Assembly: GCF_001723605.1 (NCBI RefSeq)
Contig: NZ_CP017111.1
Coordinates: forward strand, 868,001-932,000
DNA length: 64,000 nt
DNA from: Sulfurospirillum halorespirans DSM 13726
Lineage (GTDB): Bacteria; Campylobacterota; Campylobacteria; Campylobacterales; Sulfurospirillaceae
Direction of reading: 5' to 3'
In this document: piece after piece, positions 52,526 through 63,886 of the stretch
Numbering within the stretch: position 1 is the first letter of the stretch
Layout of the letters: the number at the start of each line of letters is the position of its first letter
Position numbers and translations under genes: made by a program
The notes under the pieces: generated by a model
What the model saw: only the letters and a program-made list of their open reading frames with translations
Told to the model about the DNA's origin: nothing
The model's database searches: none

Positions 52526-53164
52526 ATGGATAGAATTCGAAACGTTTCTTGTTTTTCAAAACTAAACGACGCACAACTTGAAAAGCTTAAGAAGATTTCG
52601 GTCATCAAAAAGTTTAGCGCCAAAGAGATTTTGTTTTACGAAGGCGATGCGCCCATTTATCTTTATGTACTGCTTCAAGGAACGCTCAAAGTCTATAAAA
52701 CCAATCACAAAGGACAACAGATCTTTTTGCACCAGTTTTACCCAGGTGGTTTAGTCGCGGAACTGGCAAATTTTGAGAACATTCCTTACCCTGCAACGGC
52801 GGAATTTATGAGTGAGAGTGAAGTGCTTCGCATCGACTACAAGGCGTTGGAGCATGATTTTTTCAAAAATCCTGACATTTCGTTTGAGATTATTAAATCG
52901 CTCATTGCAAAGCATAAAATTTTGATTGATGTCATTCAAAAAGAGGTGATTTTAACCGCCGATGCCAAAGTGGCGAAGTTCATCCTCGAAAATGGCGAAC
53001 TCTTTAAAACGCTTAAAAACACTCAAGTCGCTTCCATTCTCAACCTGACTCCTGAAACACTCTCCCGTACCCTTTCTAAGTTTAAATCTTCAGGATTTAT
53101 CGAGCTTGATGAAAAGCATCATATTCGCATTCTAGACACGCAGAAACTGGAAGAAGTCCTCTAG
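52526..53164 (+). CDS. Crp/Fnr family regulator upstream of nrf
   Basis: 212-residue regulator: an N-terminal cyclic-nucleotide-type beta barrel (about 15-125), dimer helix, and winged helix near 165-200 with recognition helix TPETLSRTLSKF. The E-xx-SR pattern matches proteins that read TTGA half-sites. There is no Fnr cysteine cluster, so it does not bind a [4Fe-4S] cluster in the Fnr way. It resembles the NssR-type regulators described for Campylobacterota nitrogen respiration and nitrosative stress. It lies just before a TTGAC-N4-GTCAA operator and nrfH. Confidence 0.88.
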   Translation: MDRIRNVSCFSKLNDAQLEKLKKISVIKKFSAKEILFYEGDAPIYLYVLLQGTLKVYKTNHKGQQIFLHQFYPGGLVAELANFENIPYPATAEFMSESEVLRIDYKALEHDFFKNPDISFEIIKSLIAKHKILIDVIQKEVILTADAKVAKFILENGELFKTLKNTQVASILNLTPETLSRTLSKFKSSGFIELDEKHHIRILDTQKLEEVL

Positions 53165-53180
53165 CTTTATTTACATTTCA

Positions 53181-53194
53181 TTGACATAGGTCAA
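53181..53194. promoter_or_regulatory. Crp/Fnr-type operator of the nrf operon
   Basis: TTGACATAGGTCAA is a perfect TTGAC-N4-GTCAA inverted repeat, the only such site I noticed. Its centre (53187.5) lies 41.5 bp before the start predicted from the -10 element at 53217-53222, the classic class II activator position. Two Crp/Fnr proteins with matching recognition helices are encoded on either side of the nrf genes. Confidence 0.8.
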
Positions 53195-54035: not shown

Positions 54036-55568
54036 ATGAATAAGTTCAAAGTATTACTGGTTGGCTCATTGGTTGCTATCGGCGCAATGGCATTGTTAGC
54101 TGGCAATATCACCGAAAGAGAAAAACAAAGAGTCGAACTTGCTAAAGCACCAAGCGAGGCAGGCATCGAAGGCAAAGCAAAAAGTGAAGAGTGGGCAAAG
54201 TACTATCCACGTCAGTTTGATTCTTGGAAAAAAACCAAAGAGAGCGATAACATTGACGATATGCTCGCTAAAAAACCTTACCTTGCCGTTGCTTGGGCGG
54301 GTTATCCGTTTTCAAAAGATTACAATGCACCACGAGGACATTACTACGCGGTACAAGACAATGTAAATTCCCTTAGAACCGGCGCTCCAACCGATGCTAA
54401 AACAGGTCCGTTGCCAACAGCATGTTGGACATGTAAATCGCCTGACGTTCCTCGTTTGATCGAAGAAGATGGTGAATTAGAGTATTACACGGGTAAATGG
54501 GCAAAATACGGCGCGCAAGTGGTTAACTCAGTCGGTTGTGCAACGTGTCACGATGATAAAACAGCGCAGTTAAGCGTTCGTGTGCCACATCTCAATCGTG
54601 GTCTAGCCGCTGCAGGTCTTAAAAGCTTTGAAGAGTCTACGCACCAAGAGAAACGCTCACTTGTTTGTGCACAATGTCACGTAGAGTACTACTTCAAAAA
54701 GACAGAGTGGAAAGATGCGAAAGATGTGAACAAAACAGCGATGGTGGTGACCCTTCCATATGCTAAAGGTTTGAGCGTTGAATCGATGGAAAAATACTAC
54801 GATGAGATCAACTTCTCTGACTGGGTTCATAGCATTTCTAAAACACCAATGATCAAAGCGCAACACCCAGACTGGGAGCTTTGGAGAACGGGTATTCATG
54901 GACAAAAAGGTGTTTCATGTGCGGATTGTCACATGCCTTACACACAAGAGGGTTCTGTGAAGTATTCTGATCACCAAATTGGAAATCCACTTAAAAATAT
55001 GGATAAAAGTTGTATGAACTGCCACAGAGAGAGTGAAGATAAACTCAGAGGCATCGTTCAACAAAAAGTGGAGCGTAAAGACTTTATGATGGACATCGCG
55101 TTTGATAATATCGCTAAAGCACACATCGAGACGGGAAAAGCGATGGAAGTGGGTGCAAGTGATGATGAGCTTAAAGAGATCAGAACACTCATTCGTCATG
55201 CACAATGGAGAGGCGATATGGCGATTGCAGGTCATGGTGCGTTCTTCCACGCTCCTGAAGAGGTCTTACGCCTTTTAGGATCCGCCAACGAGCAAGCACA
55301 ACAAGCCCGTCTAAAACTGGTCAGCGTTCTTGCAAAACACGGTGTTATGGACTACGTTGCACCTGATTTTGACACGAAAGACAAAGCGCAAAAAATCGCT
55401 AAAGTCGATATGCCAGCATTGATCGCTGAAAAGCTTAAATTTAAAGAAACTCTGGAGAAAGAGTGGAAAAAAGAGGCATCTGCAAAAGGCAGACTCGCTC
55501 CAAATTCCGTTGCTCTTGATCCAGCGGTGGACAGCAAATCTTCTTACTTCGATAAAAACAAGAAGTAA
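54036..55568 (+). CDS. nrfA: Ammonia-forming cytochrome c nitrite reductase NrfA
   Basis: Periplasmic pentaheme enzyme, 510 residues, reducing nitrite to ammonium with six electrons. The active-site heme is bound by CWTCK (130-134), the lysine-ligated type; the others are CATCH (168), CAQCH (211), CADCH (295) and CMNCH (326). A signal peptide (VLLVGSLVAIGAMALLA) precedes. AAAGGAAGG precedes the ATG. The CXXCK heme needs the dedicated lyase encoded next (nrfI). Confidence 0.97.
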   Translation: MNKFKVLLVGSLVAIGAMALLAGNITEREKQRVELAKAPSEAGIEGKAKSEEWAKYYPRQFDSWKKTKESDNIDDMLAKKPYLAVAWAGYPFSKDYNAPRGHYYAVQDNVNSLRTGAPTDAKTGPLPTACWTCKSPDVPRLIEEDGELEYYTGKWAKYGAQVVNSVGCATCHDDKTAQLSVRVPHLNRGLAAAGLKSFEESTHQEKRSLVCAQCHVEYYFKKTEWKDAKDVNKTAMVVTLPYAKGLSVESMEKYYDEINFSDWVHSISKTPMIKAQHPDWELWRTGIHGQKGVSCADCHMPYTQEGSVKYSDHQIGNPLKNMDKSCMNCHRESEDKLRGIVQQKVERKDFMMDIAFDNIAKAHIETGKAMEVGASDDELKEIRTLIRHAQWRGDMAIAGHGAFFHAPEEVLRLLGSANEQAQQARLKLVSVLAKHGVMDYVAPDFDTKDKAQKIAKVDMPALIAEKLKFKETLEKEWKKEASAKGRLAPNSVALDPAVDSKSSYFDKNKK

Positions 55569-55577
55569 ACTTCATTC

Positions 55578-55601
55578 CGAAGAGAGGGAAACCTCTCTTC
55601 G
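55578..55601 (+). terminator. Strong GAAA-loop hairpin after nrfA
   Basis: CGAAGAGAGG (55578-55587) and CCTCTCTTCG (55592-55601) form a perfect 10-bp stem closed by a GAAA tetraloop. No T-run follows and nrfI continues in the same direction, so it is more likely a message-stabilising or partial-stop element than a full terminator. Confidence 0.7.
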
Positions 55602-55663
55602 TGTATGCTATACTTAAACTGCCAATACCGTGGCATCTTAAGTGTGTTATACAAAGGACAAAC

Positions 55664-58039
55664 GTGTTGCTCAAAGTTTTTGGCTCCTACAAAACAACGC
55701 TGATACTGCTCTTCTTTTTAGCCGTGGGCGCTGCGATTGCAACCTTTGTGGAAAATGACTTTGGCACAGCGGTAGCGCGTTATTATGTCTATAATTCTAT
55801 CTGGTACGAAGTGATTTTAGTTCTTAGTGCGATTAACCTTGCTATAGCCCTTTACCGCTCCAAAATGATTTTACATGTAAGCCGTTTTACCTTTCATGCG
55901 GCGTTTATTCTTATTCTTATAGGATCAGGTCTCACGCGTTATTTGGGTGTCGATGGCGTGATGAAAATACGCGAAGGCTCAAGCTCAAATCTCATCTTTA
56001 GCAGTGAAAAAAACGCGGAGATCACGTTACCGTTTGCACTGCATCTGAATGACTTTGAGCTAGAACGCTATTACGGCAGTCGCTCACCCTCAGCCTATAC
56101 CAGCGATGTTCACGTAAGAGATGGCAATACAACGCTCGATGCGCAGATCTACATGAACCATACACTCACCTACAAAGGGTACAAATTTTTCCAAACCTTC
56201 TACGATCCCGATGAAAAAGGCACGATTCTCTCGGTCACCAAAGACCCTGGGGTGGAAGTGACCTATGTGGGCTACACGCTGCTTTTTTTAGGGCTTCTTT
56301 TAAATTTAGTTGATCCCAAATCGCGCTTTCGTAGGCTCATTTCCGAGGTCAAAAGCAGTTCACTTCTGGTTGTTTTCATGCTGTTGGTTCAAACACCGTT
56401 ATGGTGCGAGAGCGAGTATGTGCAAACGTATTTGAGTGAGCATCAAGCGAACAGCAAAGAGGTCAGTGACGCGTTTGGAAAACTGGTCGTGCAGTCGCGC
56501 ATGGGGCGCATGAAGCCTTTTGATACGTTAAGCCAAGAGGTACTGTATAAACTGAGCGGTAAAAATAGCCTGTACGACATGGACGCGATGCAAGTGGCGC
56601 TTGGGATGCTCTCACACCCGAGTGTGTGGAAGAATCTGCCGATGATTCAGACCAAAACGCCTAAGCTTCGAGAGTTCATCGGCATTGCGAAAGATCAAAA
56701 ATTGGCAAGCTTTGAGGACTTTTTTGATGGACATCGCTACAAACTAGACGCAGAGCTTCAAAAAGCGCTTGCGATGAAACCAAGCACACGCGGCACCTTT
56801 GAGAATGATTTGATCAAAGTCGATGAGCGCCTGAGCATCGCTTTTATGCTCTACCAAGGAGTCCTCTTTAAAATCTTCCCACTGCCCCATGATGCCAACC
56901 ACACATGGCTCGCCTTCGAGCAGATGTTTGCGCAATTAGAGGGCGCGGAAGCCGACAAAGTGCAAGAGAGCTCCACCGCATTTATCGAGGCACTGTTTGA
57001 ACGCAATTACGCCAAAGCACTTTTACATGTAAAGACGTTTTCGCAGTTTCAAAGCAAATATAGTGCTGAAATTATGCCCTCATCCACGCACATTCAGATC
57101 GAAATTTTCTACAATAAACTGATGCTTTTTGAGCGTTTAACCTTGGCGTATGTATTTTTAGGTTTGATACTTTTAGTCGTCGCGTTTGGACGCGTTTTTG
57201 CGCCTGCTACCTTTACATGTAAACTGGATCGACCGCTCTTTTTTATCGTCGCAACGTTATTTGTCGTGCACACCTGTGGACTCGCACTGCGTTGGTACAT
57301 CAGTGGTCACGCGCCACTCAGCGATACGTACGAGTCCATCGTTTATATCGCGTGGTCGTGTCTGCTTTTTTGCATGCTCTTTTTGCGCCGTTCGTTGTTT
57401 GCCCTTTCAGGCTCGGTGATGATGGCGGGCATCTTTATGTTTGTCGCACACTTGGGGCACATCGACCCTGAGATCACCAATCTTGTGCCCGTTTTAAAAT
57501 CGTTTTGGCTTAGCGTTCATGTCTCCATCATTACAGCGAGTTATGGCTTTTTGGCACTGGGCTGTGCGTTGGGACTGTTCACGCTGATACTCTTTACATG
57601 TAAACGCTCAGCCAAGATCGTTGCCACCATCAAACACCTCACCGCCATCAATGAAATCACCCTGATTTTGGGCTTGAGCCTTTTGGTTATCGGCAACTTT
57701 TTAGGCGGTATTTGGGCGAATGAATCGTGGGGGCGTTACTGGGGTTGGGACCCTAAGGAGACGTGGGCGTATATCTCCATTTTGGTCTACGCGATCATTT
57801 TACATGTAAGACTGGTGCCACGGTTTTATTCGCACTATCTCTTTGCCGTGCTTTCGCTTTTAGGCTTTGCCTCCATCTTGATGACCTACTTTGGCGTGAA
57901 CTTTTACTTAGCAGGGATGCACTCCTACGCCACGGGCGATCCTGTGCCAATTCCCATGTGGGTCTATGTCTGCAGTGGGGTAGTTGCAATGTTGATTATA
58001 ATGTCATATAAAAATAAAAATCTTAAGGAAGAAAAATGA
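55664..58039 (+). CDS. nrfI: Fused ResB-CcsA cytochrome c synthase (NrfI type)
   Basis: System II heme lyase of about 791 residues. The GTG at 55664 follows AAAGGA by 5 bases; the longer frame back to 55601 crosses the hairpin. The N-terminal ResB part has three to four helices and a large periplasmic loop; the C-terminal CcsA part has the heme-binding WWD-like motif ESWGRYWGWDPKETW. In W. succinogenes the nrf-linked synthase NrfI is needed for the CXXCK heme of NrfA; position supports the same here. Five TTACATGTAA copies lie inside. Confidence 0.92.
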   Translation: MLLKVFGSYKTTLILLFFLAVGAAIATFVENDFGTAVARYYVYNSIWYEVILVLSAINLAIALYRSKMILHVSRFTFHAAFILILIGSGLTRYLGVDGVMKIREGSSSNLIFSSEKNAEITLPFALHLNDFELERYYGSRSPSAYTSDVHVRDGNTTLDAQIYMNHTLTYKGYKFFQTFYDPDEKGTILSVTKDPGVEVTYVGYTLLFLGLLLNLVDPKSRFRRLISEVKSSSLLVVFMLLVQTPLWCESEYVQTYLSEHQANSKEVSDAFGKLVVQSRMGRMKPFDTLSQEVLYKLSGKNSLYDMDAMQVALGMLSHPSVWKNLPMIQTKTPKLREFIGIAKDQKLASFEDFFDGHRYKLDAELQKALAMKPSTRGTFENDLIKVDERLSIAFMLYQGVLFKIFPLPHDANHTWLAFEQMFAQLEGAEADKVQESSTAFIEALFERNYAKALLHVKTFSQFQSKYSAEIMPSSTHIQIEIFYNKLMLFERLTLAYVFLGLILLVVAFGRVFAPATFTCKLDRPLFFIVATLFVVHTCGLALRWYISGHAPLSDTYESIVYIAWSCLLFCMLFLRRSLFALSGSVMMAGIFMFVAHLGHIDPEITNLVPVLKSFWLSVHVSIITASYGFLALGCALGLFTLILFTCKRSAKIVATIKHLTAINEITLILGLSLLVIGNFLGGIWANESWGRYWGWDPKETWAYISILVYAIILHVRLVPRFYSHYLFAVLSLLGFASILMTYFGVNFYLAGMHSYATGDPVPIPMWVYVCSGVVAMLIIMSYKNKNLKEEK
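55871..57809. repeat. Five TTACATGTAA copies inside nrfI
   Basis: Exact copies at 55871, 57023, 57223, 57594 and 57800 (each 10 bp). Three are read as Leu-His-Val and two as Thr-Cys-Lys. This is the densest cluster in the window, about one per 475 bp of gene. Confidence 0.9.
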
Positions 58040-58686
58040 AAAAATTCTCTATTGCTCTTGTGACGCTTGCTTGTAGTTTAGCCCTTCATGCAGGAGATGT
58101 CTTTGAAGGCACGGTGGTTGACACACTGAATGGCGGTGGTTACACCTATCTGCAAATTGATGATACAAAGAAAAAATACTGGGTTGCCGTTGAGGGAACG
58201 AAAGTTGAAAAAGGGACGGAAGTTCGTTTTACTGAGGAACTTCGTGCCAAAAATTTTGAGAGCAAATCGCTTAACCGCACGTTTGATGAGATCGTTTTTG
58301 CCTCGAACCTTCAGTACCGTACACAAGTTCCTGAAAAGGGCAATTTAGCGCTTATTAACGAGCAAGTTAAAGAGTCTCCTTACAAACAAAACGATACTAT
58401 GAGTGTTAAAGAAGCGTGGGAAAAACGCGCCAGTTTGAAAGATAAAACGATTGCGATTCGAGGTAAGGTTGTCAAAGCGTCTCCCAATATTTTAGGGCAA
58501 AATTGGATTCATATTCAAGATGGTACGGGCGAGGGCAGCGACGTAGGGCGTATTGTGTTTACCTCCAAAGAGCTTCCTAAAGTGGGGGACATCGTGACCG
58601 CAAAAGGTGTCGTGAGTGTGGATAAAGATTTTGGTTCGGGCTATTTTTACAAGATTATTGTGCAAAATGCTACCTTTAGCAAATAA
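58036..58686 (+). CDS. nrfJ: Periplasmic OB-fold-like protein (NrfJ candidate)
   Basis: 216-residue exported protein (signal MKKFSIALVTLACSLALHAG). Two similar halves, GTVVDTLNGGGYTYLQI and GKVVKASPNILGQNWIHIQDG, look like tandem OB folds. It overlaps nrfI by 4 bp (ATGA). In W. succinogenes the fourth gene of nrfHAIJ encodes an uncharacterised protein; this is called NrfJ from position and general type only. No heme or metal motif is present. Confidence 0.65.
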   Translation: MKKFSIALVTLACSLALHAGDVFEGTVVDTLNGGGYTYLQIDDTKKKYWVAVEGTKVEKGTEVRFTEELRAKNFESKSLNRTFDEIVFASNLQYRTQVPEKGNLALINEQVKESPYKQNDTMSVKEAWEKRASLKDKTIAIRGKVVKASPNILGQNWIHIQDGTGEGSDVGRIVFTSKELPKVGDIVTAKGVVSVDKDFGSGYFYKIIVQNATFSK

Positions 58687-58702: not shown

Positions 58703-59365
58703 ATGACAAACGATCCTTTGGCGCTTATTGCTTCCTTGCCACTGTTTGATTCTCTGCAAAGTGACGATATCCAAAAAATCGCCTCCTTTTGCAGTGTGCG
58801 TCACCATAAAGCTGGTGATGTGCTTTTTTATGAAAAAGACACCAAAGATGCGATCTATTACATCATCAAAGGCTCGGTCAAATTTTACAAGGTAGACCGT
58901 TTTGATAATGAAATTTTCCTCTACAAACTCTACTCCAACTCCCTTATTTTCAATGTTTCCAAGCTGATTGATAGCTTTTTTATCAGCTGTTACGCGAACG
59001 CCGAATTTTTGGAAGACAGCACGGTGCTCTCCATCCAAAGTGAGCCGTTTCGCGCGATGATCTACACCAATCACCGTTTGATGACGAAGATATTGGAAGA
59101 GTCGTTTAAGATGATTCAGCAGATGCAGTGTATTATTAGCCGTGATGTTGTGTTTGATGGAACGGCGAAAGTCGCGCACATGCTCGTTAATGAGCTGGAA
59201 ACGTTTAACCGCCTTAAAAAACATGAAATTGCCTATATGTTGCACATTCAACCTGAGACACTTTCACGTATTTTAAACAAACTCACCCGTAACGGCACGA
59301 TTGAGATCGAAAAAAACAGCGTTGTGGTCTTGAATATTCAAGAGCTCAAAGAGATTTATGAGTAG
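58703..59365 (+). CDS. Second Crp/Fnr family regulator
   Basis: 220-residue regulator downstream of nrfJ in the same direction. It has an N-terminal sensory barrel (GDVLFYEKDTKDAIYYIIKG), a dimer helix and a winged helix with recognition segment QPETLSRILNKL, again E-xx-SR. No Fnr-type cysteine cluster is seen. It differs clearly from the first regulator, so they are not a recent duplicate. It may sense nitrite, nitrate or NO products for the nrf genes; this is inference. Confidence 0.86.
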   Translation: MTNDPLALIASLPLFDSLQSDDIQKIASFCSVRHHKAGDVLFYEKDTKDAIYYIIKGSVKFYKVDRFDNEIFLYKLYSNSLIFNVSKLIDSFFISCYANAEFLEDSTVLSIQSEPFRAMIYTNHRLMTKILEESFKMIQQMQCIISRDVVFDGTAKVAHMLVNELETFNRLKKHEIAYMLHIQPETLSRILNKLTRNGTIEIEKNSVVVLNIQELKEIYE

Positions 59366-59371
59366 GACATT

Positions 59372-60751
59372 ATGATTAAACCAACCACCATTAGCACCAA
59401 AATGAAACTCGCAGGCGGACTGCTTTCGTTTGTGATTATTTTCATCATTTCACTCACCGTCATGATGAACCAGATGAGCAAAAAAGACTCCTACATCATC
59501 AACATCGCAGGCAAACAGCGCATGCTCTCCCAAAAGATCAGTAAAGAGACCTTTTTCATCGTGCATCGCCATACCAATGACTTCCGCGAGCTCAACACCG
59601 CGGTCGGTCTGTTTGAAAGCAGCCTCAAAGACCTTTTGTACGGCAATGATGCCAAAGGCATTTACGCCCCTCAAAATGATCGCATCCAAACCAAACTGGA
59701 AGAGGTCATGGCGCTGTGGCTTCCGTTTCGCGTTGAGGTTGAAGCGCTTAAAAGCGGCATCGAAGAGGTGCGCCCAGATATGGAAGTCTTAACGCCTCGC
59801 ATCGAAAAACTCCTCGTGCTCTCTGACACGGTGGTGCAACGCATGGTGGGAGCGAATCTCAGCAACATTCACATCGATCTTTCAGGTCGTCAACGCATGC
59901 TCTCTCAACGTATGGGGCTGTATGTGAATCGTTATTTGCGCTCGGCCAATGCACAAGACTTGCTCGTTTATGCCGATGCCAAGGCACTTTACAACAAAAC
60001 CATTAAAAGCTTTTTGGATGATGCTGCGGTGAAAAATGCTCCCGAAGTCTACGCCATCGTCAAAGAGAACAACGCGTATTGGGAAGAGTACATGCTCTAC
60101 TTAGACCATGTCATCGCACTGGAGAGTGAGATCAACAAGCACTTGGCGTTTGTGTATGAAAAAAACGTGCAACTGCTCAATGCAATGGATGAAGCGGTCT
60201 GGCTCTACACCGACCACAGCGAAGCCAAAAACGATATGTTTCTCAAATTTCAGTACATCGCGCTTTTGATTGGGCTTATTATCATCGTGTATGCGTTTGT
60301 GATGACCAAAGAGATTACGGAACATTTAGAAGGGTTTGTGCAAAAAGCCAAAGAGCTCGCACATGGCGATATAAGTAGTTTTTCGGGGCAAAATGTGACG
60401 CTCTCTTCCCACAGCGAAGATGAGCTCAAAGAAGCTTCAACGCACATTTCACTCTTTGTGCAAAAGGTCAATCTCGCGATGAAAGACTCCGAAGATGCGC
60501 TCAAAAAAGCAGAAAATGCCGTCTCACAACTCCAGCAACTCGCGGAAGAAGTTGAAGATGTCATCGAAGATATGGGCATTGACGAGAATGCAAAGAAGAC
60601 GTTTGATAAAAATGTGAACGCGACAGAAGACATCGCCATCCAGTCGGCGGAAAATCTCATCCATGTCAACCGCATGCTTCAAAAGCTGAAAAAAAGCCTT
60701 AATGCGATGGTCGAGAGTAGCAACCAAACGGACGAAAAAAAAGAGGTGTAA
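59372..60751 (+). CDS. PilJ/NarX-like sensor protein without output domain
   Basis: 459-residue membrane protein. After the first helix (about 15-33) it has INIAGKQRMLSQKISK (43-58), very close to the nitrate-binding P-box of NarX, and a second related IDLSGRQRMLSQRM near residue 170, the PilJ pattern. A second helix lies near 290-310, then HAMP-like and coiled-coil segments to the end. No kinase, methyl-accepting or GGDEF domain follows. It starts 6 bp after the second Crp/Fnr gene, so it could report nitrate or nitrite to that regulator. Confidence 0.8.
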   Translation: MIKPTTISTKMKLAGGLLSFVIIFIISLTVMMNQMSKKDSYIINIAGKQRMLSQKISKETFFIVHRHTNDFRELNTAVGLFESSLKDLLYGNDAKGIYAPQNDRIQTKLEEVMALWLPFRVEVEALKSGIEEVRPDMEVLTPRIEKLLVLSDTVVQRMVGANLSNIHIDLSGRQRMLSQRMGLYVNRYLRSANAQDLLVYADAKALYNKTIKSFLDDAAVKNAPEVYAIVKENNAYWEEYMLYLDHVIALESEINKHLAFVYEKNVQLLNAMDEAVWLYTDHSEAKNDMFLKFQYIALLIGLIIIVYAFVMTKEITEHLEGFVQKAKELAHGDISSFSGQNVTLSSHSEDELKEASTHISLFVQKVNLAMKDSEDALKKAENAVSQLQQLAEEVEDVIEDMGIDENAKKTFDKNVNATEDIAIQSAENLIHVNRMLQKLKKSLNAMVESSNQTDEKKEV

Positions 60752-61648: not shown

Positions 61649-62920
61649 TTAATTTATGGAATAAATCAGAAAATTATTTTTACCATCTTCGTACTTGTAT
61701 TTTAAGGTATGACCATGTTTTTTAAAAATTTGATTTGCTATATAAAGTCCAAGACCCAGCCCTGAATTTGACGCCTCTACCTTTCTGTTAAAAGCCCTTT
61801 CAAAATCAAGTCTTTCTGCCTCAAGCTTCTCTCCTATGCTACTTATGCAGACCGTATTTTTATCTATGCTTACAAGAACTTTGCCACTAGAGTATTTTAA
61901 AGCATTGTCAATTAAATTTTTAACGCCAGTTGCGTAAAGTTCAAAATCAACCTCTACCGCACTTATTTTGTTGTCCGCTCGCACTTCTATGCGACTCGTA
62001 TCTTTTAATAAAAGTAGATCTATTGAGTGATCAATGATATCTATGACTCGGTGTTTATTTTTTTTAAATGCCCATTCATTGGATACAAGTTTTTCTACCT
62101 TGACGACTTCGCCCAATATTATTTCAAGTCGTATAAAAATTTTTTTTAATATATTTTTAAATTTATCATCTTGTAAGAGCTCAGCTATCACGTCCGCCAT
62201 AATCCGCCCCTTCATTATCGGGTTGCGAAATTCGTGCAAAATATTGCGTAAAAATAGTGCTCTGGCTTCCTTTAGTGTATATAGTTTTTGCATTGTCGCA
62301 TTAAATTCGCTGGCGATTTGGCCTATTTCATCATTTGCTTCTATTTTTATCGGTTTAAATTTATCTTTTTCTCCTGTTTCCCTTATCAAATTTTTTAAAT
62401 TTCTAAGTTTTAGCAGCTTTCTTAAAACGGCTATAAAAAAAGCCATCATTACACTATTTACTATAAACCAAAGTATCCAAATTCTAGGTGAAGAGAGTTC
62501 TTTTAAATTTTCTAAAGGCACCCCGTTCCTAATGATACTACTTCTTGATGGGGCAAGCCCTGCCGCAGCCATAATTTGAGATAGCATTTCAGAATCTACA
62601 GAAAAAAATCTAGGCACAAAATAAAGCTTTTTATTGTATCTTATCATATCAGCATATGAATCGCTAAAAATTTTCTCACCGTTTTGCCTAATCTCACTAG
62701 GGTTAAGGCTACTGTCTTTAAGTCCGATTTGCTCTAGCTGTTGAGTTATATTGCCATCTTCTTGTCCGCGTATGCGCATACCTAACATAAAGCGCTGGTA
62801 AGTAAAGTACTCCGCATCTCTTATTTGTCTATTGGATTCGATAAAAAATGCCGAATTTATTGTAATTAGAGCTACAAAAAAGAAAAATGATATTAATTTG
62901 ACTATAGATATACTACCCAT
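61649..62920 (-). CDS. Sensor histidine kinase (ArsS-like)
   Basis: 423 residues. Helix 1 (7-27), a periplasmic domain of about 115 residues, helix 2 (148-167), HAMP (about 168-220), then RNILHEFRNPIMKGRI with the phospho-His at 229, N-box NLIDNALKYS (335-344) and GLGLGLYIANQIFKKHGH. The pattern resembles ArsS-type acid or metal sensors of Campylobacterota. Its 3' codons and those of the paired regulator are much more AT-rich than the rest of the window. It overlaps the regulator by 8 bp. Confidence 0.88.
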   Translation of the reverse strand: MGSISIVKLISFFFFVALITINSAFFIESNRQIRDAEYFTYQRFMLGMRIRGQEDGNITQQLEQIGLKDSSLNPSEIRQNGEKIFSDSYADMIRYNKKLYFVPRFFSVDSEMLSQIMAAAGLAPSRSSIIRNGVPLENLKELSSPRIWILWFIVNSVMMAFFIAVLRKLLKLRNLKNLIRETGEKDKFKPIKIEANDEIGQIASEFNATMQKLYTLKEARALFLRNILHEFRNPIMKGRIMADVIAELLQDDKFKNILKKIFIRLEIILGEVVKVEKLVSNEWAFKKNKHRVIDIIDHSIDLLLLKDTSRIEVRADNKISAVEVDFELYATGVKNLIDNALKYSSGKVLVSIDKNTVCISSIGEKLEAERLDFERAFNRKVEASNSGLGLGLYIANQIFKKHGHTLKYKYEDGKNNFLIYSIN

Positions 62921-63731
62921 TGATAAATTTATACCCTATACCGCGCACAGAGTGAATAAAGCGTGGATTTTGAGGATCATCTCCAATTTTTTGGCGTAGG
63001 CGCCCTATAGCTACATCAATACTTTTTAGTCCACTTTGAAATTTTGACTGACCTAAATGTATCAAAATATCTTCTCTTGGTATAACTATCCCCTCTTTTT
63101 CATAAAGGTAGGTAAAAATATCAAATTCCAATTTTGTTGGTGCTATTTCCTCTTTATTCTTTACAATGATACGTCTTTGTTTATCGACTAAAAAAGTTTT
63201 GGAGTCATTGCTAACCAGTATCCCTCGGCGTAATATGGACCTTAGCCTAAAAGCAAGTTCTATGGGCTCATACGGCTTTGTCACATAATCATCTGCCCCA
63301 AGCTCAAACCCTTTTATCTTATCTAGTGTCTCGGTGCGAGCCGATGATATAATTATAGGTAGCGACAGATAGGTCCGCCTAACATTTTTGCACACTTCAA
63401 GACCGTCCATATCGGGCAAGCCCAGATCAAGTACCAATGCATCGAAGGTACTTTTTTCGTTTAAAATTTTAAGTCCTTCAAGCGGATTTGTGGCTATCGT
63501 TACGCCAATCTCACTTTTTGCCAAAGCATATTTTAAAAGCTCAGCCAGATCAAGATCGTCTTCTATAAGTAAAATTTCTATCATAGTATCGAAGGTATTT
63601 TTTTCGTTTAAAATTTTAAGTCCTTCAAGTGGATTTGTGACTATAGTTATGCCAATCTCACTTTTTGCCAAAGCATATTTTAAAAGCTCAGCCAGATCAA
63701 GATCGTCTTCTATAAGTAAAATTTCTACCAT
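62913..63731 (-). CDS. OmpR-type response regulator with duplicated N-terminus
   Basis: 272 residues, about 49 more than normal. The first 49 (MVEILLIEDDLDLAELLKYA onward) are repeated nearly exactly as residues 50-98 (MIEILLIEDDLDLAELLKYA onward). The full receiver is the second copy, with phosphoacceptor in LVLDLGLPD; the first copy has the acidic pair only. A winged helix follows (APTKLEFDIFTYLYEKEG, then SVRGIGYKFING). The ancestral start was probably ATG 63584, now internal. Neither start has a clear ribosome-binding site. Confidence 0.88.
   Translation of the reverse strand: MVEILLIEDDLDLAELLKYALAKSEIGITIVTNPLEGLKILNEKNTFDTMIEILLIEDDLDLAELLKYALAKSEIGVTIATNPLEGLKILNEKSTFDALVLDLGLPDMDGLEVCKNVRRTYLSLPIIISSARTETLDKIKGFELGADDYVTKPYEPIELAFRLRSILRRGILVSNDSKTFLVDKQRRIIVKNKEEIAPTKLEFDIFTYLYEKEGIVIPREDILIHLGQSKFQSGLKSIDVAIGRLRQKIGDDPQNPRFIHSVRGIGYKFING
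63438..63731. repeat. 147-bp in-frame tandem duplication
   Basis: Copy A 63585-63731 and copy B 63438-63584 are tandem, each 147 bp (49 codons), and differ at only about six or seven bases. The unit runs from the start codon into the receiver domain and keeps the frame open. Confidence 0.92.
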
Positions 63732-63738
63732 ACGTAGT

Positions 63739-63886
63739 GATTATACCGAAATCTTACCAAATTATAAAAATTTAGAACTAAAAAATATTTTTATGTAATG
63801 TTACCAAAATGTTACCAAACCTTATCATATTCTAAAAATTTATAACTAAAAAAATATTTTTAGAAATGTTGCCAAAATCTTGCCGT
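63739..63886 (-). promoter_or_regulatory. Upstream region with three pairs of 11-bp boxes
   Basis: Three tandem pairs of an 11-bp element, consensus AATGTTACCAA: 63739-63749/63750-63760 (weaker first box), 63797-63807/63808-63818 (both perfect), and 63865-63875/63876-63886 (AATGTTGCCAA, AATCTTGCCGT). Adjacent 11-bp direct repeats are the usual binding mode of OmpR/PhoB-type regulators, so autoregulation is likely. TATAAT on the minus strand at 63761-63766 is a good -10 for the regulator gene; a diverged copy of the same AT-rich block lies 68 bp away. Confidence 0.6.

Follow-up and report, generated by a model that had tools for sequence, protein, structure and literature searches.

It is likely that a kinase-less membrane sensor and the Crp/Fnr regulator encoded directly upstream of it in Sulfurospirillum halorespirans DSM 13726 form one nitrate-signalling unit, in which a cytoplasmic helical hairpin of the sensor would control the NssA-type regulator by contact and without phosphoryl transfer. 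Both genes lie beside the nrf genes in a 64,000-nucleotide (nt) stretch of contig NZ_CP017111.1 (positions 868,001 to 932,000; hereafter the window). Since a protein with a nitrate-binding motif and no kinase follows a Crp/Fnr gene in 148 of 148 complete pairs from Campylobacterota, the regulator of Wolinella succinogenes included, we propose that sensor and regulator probably make up a two-protein nitrate switch of a new type. The features of the pair are as follows (aa, amino acids; TM, transmembrane helix; MCP, methyl-accepting chemotaxis protein).

58703-59365, plus strand: Crp/Fnr regulator (Crp2), NssA type, from a domain scan and comparison with the W. succinogenes Crp/Fnr proteins
59372-60751, plus strand: kinase-less PilJ/N-box membrane sensor, 459 aa, ATG start
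59408-59464, plus strand: TM1 (aa 13-31), hydropathy 2.52
59498-59533, plus strand: first N-box, INIAGKQRMLSQ (aa 43-54), an exact match to the McpN N-box pattern
59873-59908, plus strand: second N-box, IDLSGRQRMLSQ (aa 168-179), found in long forms of the sensor
60248-60304, plus strand: TM2 (aa 293-311), from hydropathy
60305-60481, plus strand: HAMP-like segment (aa 312-370), from homology to MCP HAMP and a NarQ alignment
60419-60727, plus strand: cytoplasmic helical hairpin (about aa 350-452), the proposed output, from AlphaFold2 models
60626-60646, plus strand: EDIAIQS motif (aa 419-425), with E419 in 147 of 148 sensors

Architecture of the sensor

The sequence-only reading of this locus had described two P-box-like motifs, two membrane helices and HAMP-like sequence in a protein starting 6 bp behind a Crp/Fnr gene, and these points were borne out, the HAMP-like sequence by homology and structural alignment. 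By the open reading frame calls, the sensor ATG lies 6 nt past the TAG of the Crp/Fnr gene. Only two hydrophobic peaks are present, at TM1 and TM2. Compared with the N-box of McpN (PMC6381276), the first motif is identical to the pattern and the second, IDLSGRQRMLSQ, departs from it by a single change, A to S. Residues G47 and R50 of the first N-box, which belong to the nitrate-binding G-x-x-R, are each kept in 140 of the 148 sensors aligned, and nitrate as the presumed ligand is well supported. The PilJ domain (PF13675) was matched in the sensor at 9.5e-26 in two stretches, and it was present in all 22 family members scanned against Pfam; here and below, E-values and tallies are relative to the genome set searched. 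Among the proteins of its own genome the sensor alone passed the PilJ cut-off, and a 548-aa protein of the same genome that matched weakly is without G-x-x-R-M.

The AlphaFold2 model of the sensor has a mean predicted local distance difference test score (pLDDT) of 81, and most of the periplasmic bundle exceeds 90. It aligned to the periplasmic region of PilJ with a Z score of 20.7 and to McpN with a Z score of 18.2 (1.9 Å across 124 residues). Although the Pfam HAMP model was silent, chemoreceptors of the same genus have a HAMP that is homologous to the sequence following TM2 (phmmer 1e-9 in a small set, and likewise in a genome search), and the model aligned structurally, at a Z score of about 15, with NarQ fragments covering TM and HAMP.

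No histidine kinase, MCP, GGDEF or HAMP model matched the sensor in the Pfam scan. Across the sensor family, Pfam scans and the alignment of 148 proteins revealed neither HisKA/HisKA_3 and HATPase domains nor the phospho-acceptor histidine of NarX/NarQ, and the MCPsignal domain was likewise not found in the Pfam scans. A truncated NarX or pseudogene can be discarded as an explanation: the long form is intact and is conserved from Sulfurospirillum to relatives of Helicobacter.

The protein had been thought to end in an undefined coiled coil. Instead, the models predict a conserved antiparallel helical hairpin with an E-D-x-x-I motif, formed by helices at aa 350-400 and 405-455, the first of which doubles at its start as helix 2 of the HAMP-like segment. 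With a deeper alignment the hairpin is predicted at a pLDDT of about 85-90. E419-D420-x-x-I423 is almost invariant across the 148 sensors, in which E351, E419, D420, I423 and E427 are conserved at 91-99%, and the cytoplasmic part of these proteins has no conserved histidine (maximum 52%). Because of this conservation and the lack of any histidine above 52%, the hairpin is best regarded as a dedicated module and not a remnant, and as one without a candidate phospho-acceptor. A fold search with just the cytoplasmic part returned only generic helical hairpins (best Z score about 10) and no standout family. In the Protein Data Bank (PDB), most matches to the cytoplasmic sequence profile were coiled coils or designed helical proteins, and a sensory rhodopsin transducer gave one weak match.

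Pairing of the sensor with a Crp/Fnr regulator

Sensors were sought by their own sequence, without reference to Crp/Fnr. The set used for pairing comprised 148 non-identical complete sensors of 280-480 aa with flanking DNA, and an orthologue of Crp2 lay directly upstream in all of them, so that the predicted conservation of the gene pair was upheld without exception. The gap between the two genes ranges from -32 to 63 nt, with a mode of -4 (56 cases), and is 30 nt or less in 146 of the 148 pairs. By database family labels, and counting pairs with retrieved DNA, at least 12 Campylobacterales families have the pair, and its diverged long and short forms are represented among them. The pairing is far beyond chance and very well supported. 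At a threshold of 1e-15, 191 of 399 genomes of the order matched, which is an upper figure for the sensor family since some matches are other PilJ proteins. Six matches were unpaired: three are contig-cut or split, one is a distant PilJ protein and two are chemoreceptor fragments. By size the sensors comprise 83 long forms, normally with two N-boxes, and 65 short forms with one, the latter found in Arcobacter and Sulfurimonas relatives among others.

Full-length relatives in named GTDB genomes belong to Campylobacterota. The matches from other phyla (within L113-L128) mostly cover the PilJ region only and have no adjacent Crp2 homologue; six such PilJ-type proteins that were scanned carry MCPsignal (e.g. 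L113, L116) or histidine kinase (HisKA) outputs. This bears on the possibility that the sensor feeds a separate kinase, either CheA via receptor arrays or an orphan histidine kinase, acting on Crp2 or elsewhere. The homology of the TM2-HAMP segment to chemoreceptors of the same genus would favour such an arrangement, but since there is no MCPsignal domain the sensor has no known CheA-binding tip, the genes identified around the pairs include no conserved kinase or response regulator neighbour, and the Crp/Fnr proteins are without a receiver domain. We therefore regard this explanation as very improbable, and the absence of a linked kinase, as had been supposed from the sequence, holds as far as it is testable.

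Genes around the pairs include napA, napB, moaA (molybdenum cofactor) or nrf, and outside Sulfurospirillum the majority of pairs have nap genes nearby and the pair often stands beside napA. The sequence-only reading's emphasis on nrf is thus right for the window and too narrow in general, since many pairs elsewhere adjoin napA. Accidental co-transcription with nrf was considered and rejected, as the pair is often found at napA outside Sulfurospirillum yet stays together. A further alternative is that the pair is a real signalling unit whose ligand is neither nitrate nor nitrite. G-x-x-R is missing in a minority of pairs, as this would predict, but the window protein has an exact N-box and the pairs accompany nap, nrf and molybdenum cofactor genes, which makes a different ligand improbable. 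Two short-form pairs (L038 6271-7221 and L040 888-1844) have a degenerated N-box but still possess some form of the cytoplasmic motif as well as their Crp partner; their ligand may have changed.

Orthology to the nap-adjacent regulator of Wolinella

Crp2 consists of cNMP_binding and HTH_Crp_2 domains; Pfam revealed no LytTR DNA-binding domain in it and no receiver domain in the Crp/Fnr proteins of the window. The W. succinogenes genome, whose NrfA is identical across 507 residues to PDB 1FS9, the Wolinella NrfA enzyme, gave three Crp/Fnr matches. The nap-adjacent one shares 47% identity with Crp2; downstream of it come a gene for a sensor of 460 aa (34% identity) and then napA. It is the closest of the three to all 148 paired Crp/Fnr proteins, and the window regulator is its orthologue.

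For Nitrosophilus labii, the Crp/Fnr protein upstream of nap has been reported to be 44.8, 29.2 and 26.1% identical to NssA, NssB and NssC, respectively (PMC11539149). In the f19 genomes, which may be relatives of N. labii, the Crp proteins upstream of nap have identities of about 44-49% to the nap-adjacent Wolinella protein, 28-31% to the second and 24-27% to the third. Since this pattern parallels the published values, we infer that the nap-adjacent Wolinella protein is NssA. NssA, a nitrate-responsive activator, is described in PMC6682613 as mediating the nitrate response of Wolinella, and a review (PMC8139620) calls the detection of nitrate, NO and N2O by the Nss regulators not understood.

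The nrf locus and promoter sites

In the window the gene order is Crp1, nrfH, nrfA, nrfI, nrfJ-like, Crp2, sensor and a hydrolase, with the following features upstream of the pair.

52526-53164, plus strand: second Crp/Fnr regulator (Crp1), NssB type, no attached sensor
53181-53194, plus strand: palindrome TTGACATAGGTCAA upstream of nrfH, an exact TTGA-N6-TCAA
53298-53912, plus strand: nrfH, start codon uncertain
54036-55568, plus strand: nrfA
55601-58039, plus strand: nrfI, cytochrome c assembly of the ResB/CcsA type
58036-58686, plus strand: nrfJ-like gene, 16 nt upstream of Crp2, named from the NrfHAIJ order in PMC4585668

The Sulfurospirillum nrfHAIJ operon appears to include the sensor and Crp/Fnr genes themselves. 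Since Crp1 sits just ahead of nrfH, an NssA-type and an NssB-type regulator flank one nrf operon.

The published consensus is TTGA-N6-TCAA (PMC11539149). Sites with up to one mismatch are no more frequent in the window (66) than in shuffled sequence (62.7), and it is therefore the position and conservation of the boxes that count. A box lies within 300 nt upstream of 12 of 12 nrfH genes, exactly in 10, and upstream of 51 of 51 napA genes at up to one mismatch, exactly in 26. In nearly all loci checked, nrfH and napA are preceded by a palindrome of the form TTGAC-N4-GTCAW. Counted by eye, about 49 of the 51 napA genes share TTGAC-N4-GTCAW or a near variant, many of them at -72 to -76; the upstream site of napA in the window genome is TTGACTTAAGTCAT. 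The hcp gene (hybrid cluster protein) of the same genome has two overlapping exact TTGA-N6-TCAA boxes (L309 1241-1258) about 60-75 nt ahead of its start. In Sulfurospirillum multivorans, Nap and NrfA are raised by nitrate and hydroxylamine reductase is strongly nitrate-induced (PMC4585668).

Elsewhere in the window, a response regulator gene (62913-63731, minus strand) carries in its 5' end a 147-bp tandem duplication (63441-63732, 95% match) that repeats the first ~49 residues in frame; a 68-bp tandem repeat of 2.1 copies (63744-63885) is found upstream of that gene.

Proposed mechanism

In the model that we propose, a homodimeric inner-membrane receptor would bind nitrate, and possibly nitrite too, through the N-box in the periplasmic PilJ bundle, and the ligand-induced change would be relayed via TM2 and the HAMP-like segment to the E-D-x-x-I hairpin. 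The hairpin would then control the co-encoded NssA-type Crp/Fnr protein through protein-protein contact, without phosphoryl transfer or a second messenger, and the freed or activated regulator would switch on the TTGAC-N4-GTCAW promoters ahead of napA and nrfHAIJ. Control by contact is the best explanation for the combination of an exact N-box, a transmission segment, a conserved hairpin, constant co-encoding with a Crp/Fnr protein and no kinase. The interpretation given in the sequence-only reading is partly supported, its core, direct contact, being the proposed part. As to the sign of control, we have a slight preference for sequestration without nitrate and release with nitrate over activation by contact, since hold-and-release is simplest for a regulator that has to reach DNA and has a precedent in the LytTR Regulatory Systems (PMC6193735).

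In Crp/Fnr proteins, sensing is usually the task of an effector domain of the protein itself, and they are normally seen as self-contained sensors. It may be, then, that a cytoplasmic effector (NO, redox or some other small molecule) binds to Crp2 itself while the sensor tunes its level or acts in parallel, in which case co-transcription would reflect shared regulation and not contact. C96 and C143 occur in 77% and 72% of the paired Crps and a few Crp/Fnr relatives stand alone, both of which would suit this explanation; however, neither cysteine is invariant, only these two exceed 30%, and the paired Crps do not have the FNR-type set of four cluster cysteines. Adjacency without exception over 12 families and the high conservation of a cytoplasmic hairpin with no recognised output domain also speak against it. 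We consider an own effector unlikely, although it is the least unlikely of the three alternatives discussed here.

Several observations weigh against the proposed contact mechanism or its generality. Among 28 Crp/Fnr proteins that were labelled sensor-less, 20 are closest to the NssB-type paralogue of Wolinella, which favours the proposal, L022 is contig-cut and L174 is actually paired via an overlapping start; at L177 (1483-2647) all that follows the intact Crp/Fnr gene is a fragment of 65 aa bearing the C-terminal motif of the sensor, which seems to have decayed. L181, L182, L184 and L187, however, with identities of about 33%, are relatives that truly lack a sensor, and L195 (5226-10105) has a Crp/Fnr protein of the same clade near napA and no sensor; this napA is without a good upstream promoter box. 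It is equally possible that the NssB-type paralogue acts at the promoter sites. Since the N-box arginine is missing in 8 of the 148 pairs, nitrate is probably not the ligand of every family member. Finally, mean-field direct coupling analysis of the 148 concatenated pairs, underpowered at an effective number of about 97, gave top couplings between the periplasmic domain and Crp, which are impossible as contacts, and the signal was therefore dismissed as phylogenetic noise, uninformative for contact. Several positions distinguish paired from sensor-less Crps. Some of them cluster at aa 147-154, presumably the hinge that precedes the DNA-binding domain; this cluster, in which residues common to paired Crps are absent from sensor-less ones, is a candidate contact or allosteric site.

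Taken further, we would lean narrowly towards the view that the pair constitutes a separate transmembrane signalling class, a chemoreceptor-derived kinase-less receptor whose HAMP-linked hairpin captures or activates a Crp/Fnr protein directly, and a Campylobacterota-wide switch that explains nitrate sensing by NssA. If true, this would mean that a receptor of the NarX or chemoreceptor type can function without any kinase, its target being a Crp/Fnr protein. The pair, which is present in 12 or more families and also in the model organism W. succinogenes, offers a specific and easily tested answer to the question of nitrate sensing in Campylobacterota. Sediments, vents, wastewater and hosts are settings in which their nitrate ammonification is important.

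Comparison with known systems

No earlier description of the sensor-Crp/Fnr pair was found in the open PMC literature; Kern and Simon (2016), on Wolinella, is outside it and may mention the gene. The probable NssA of W. succinogenes is, among the three Crp/Fnr proteins of that genome, closest to all 148 paired Crps, with 47% identity to that of the window, and its gene too is followed by that of a sensor, but the literature passages treat it as a regulator of unknown sensing and mention no sensor partner. With NarX and NarQ the window sensor shares a periplasmic helical sensor with a P-box G-x-x-R, two TM helices and probably a HAMP-like segment; unlike them it has no DHp, HATPase or phospho-acceptor histidine, and its partner is a Crp/Fnr protein and not a response regulator. 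It resembles McpN and PilJ in its PilJ domain, the exact N-box of McpN, the tandem periplasmic bundle of PilJ and the HAMP-like segment, but lacks the MCP signalling domain and is partnered by a transcription factor. In the LytTR Regulatory Systems a regulator and a transmembrane partner likewise share an operon, with possible positive autoregulation, although the families are unrelated and the partners there are membrane inhibitors, whereas the partner here is a receptor whose ligand-binding motif is known. NasR (NIT-ANTAR) also uses a nitrate-binding helical domain to control genes without phosphorylation (PMC8199190), but does so as one soluble protein acting on RNA via ANTAR.
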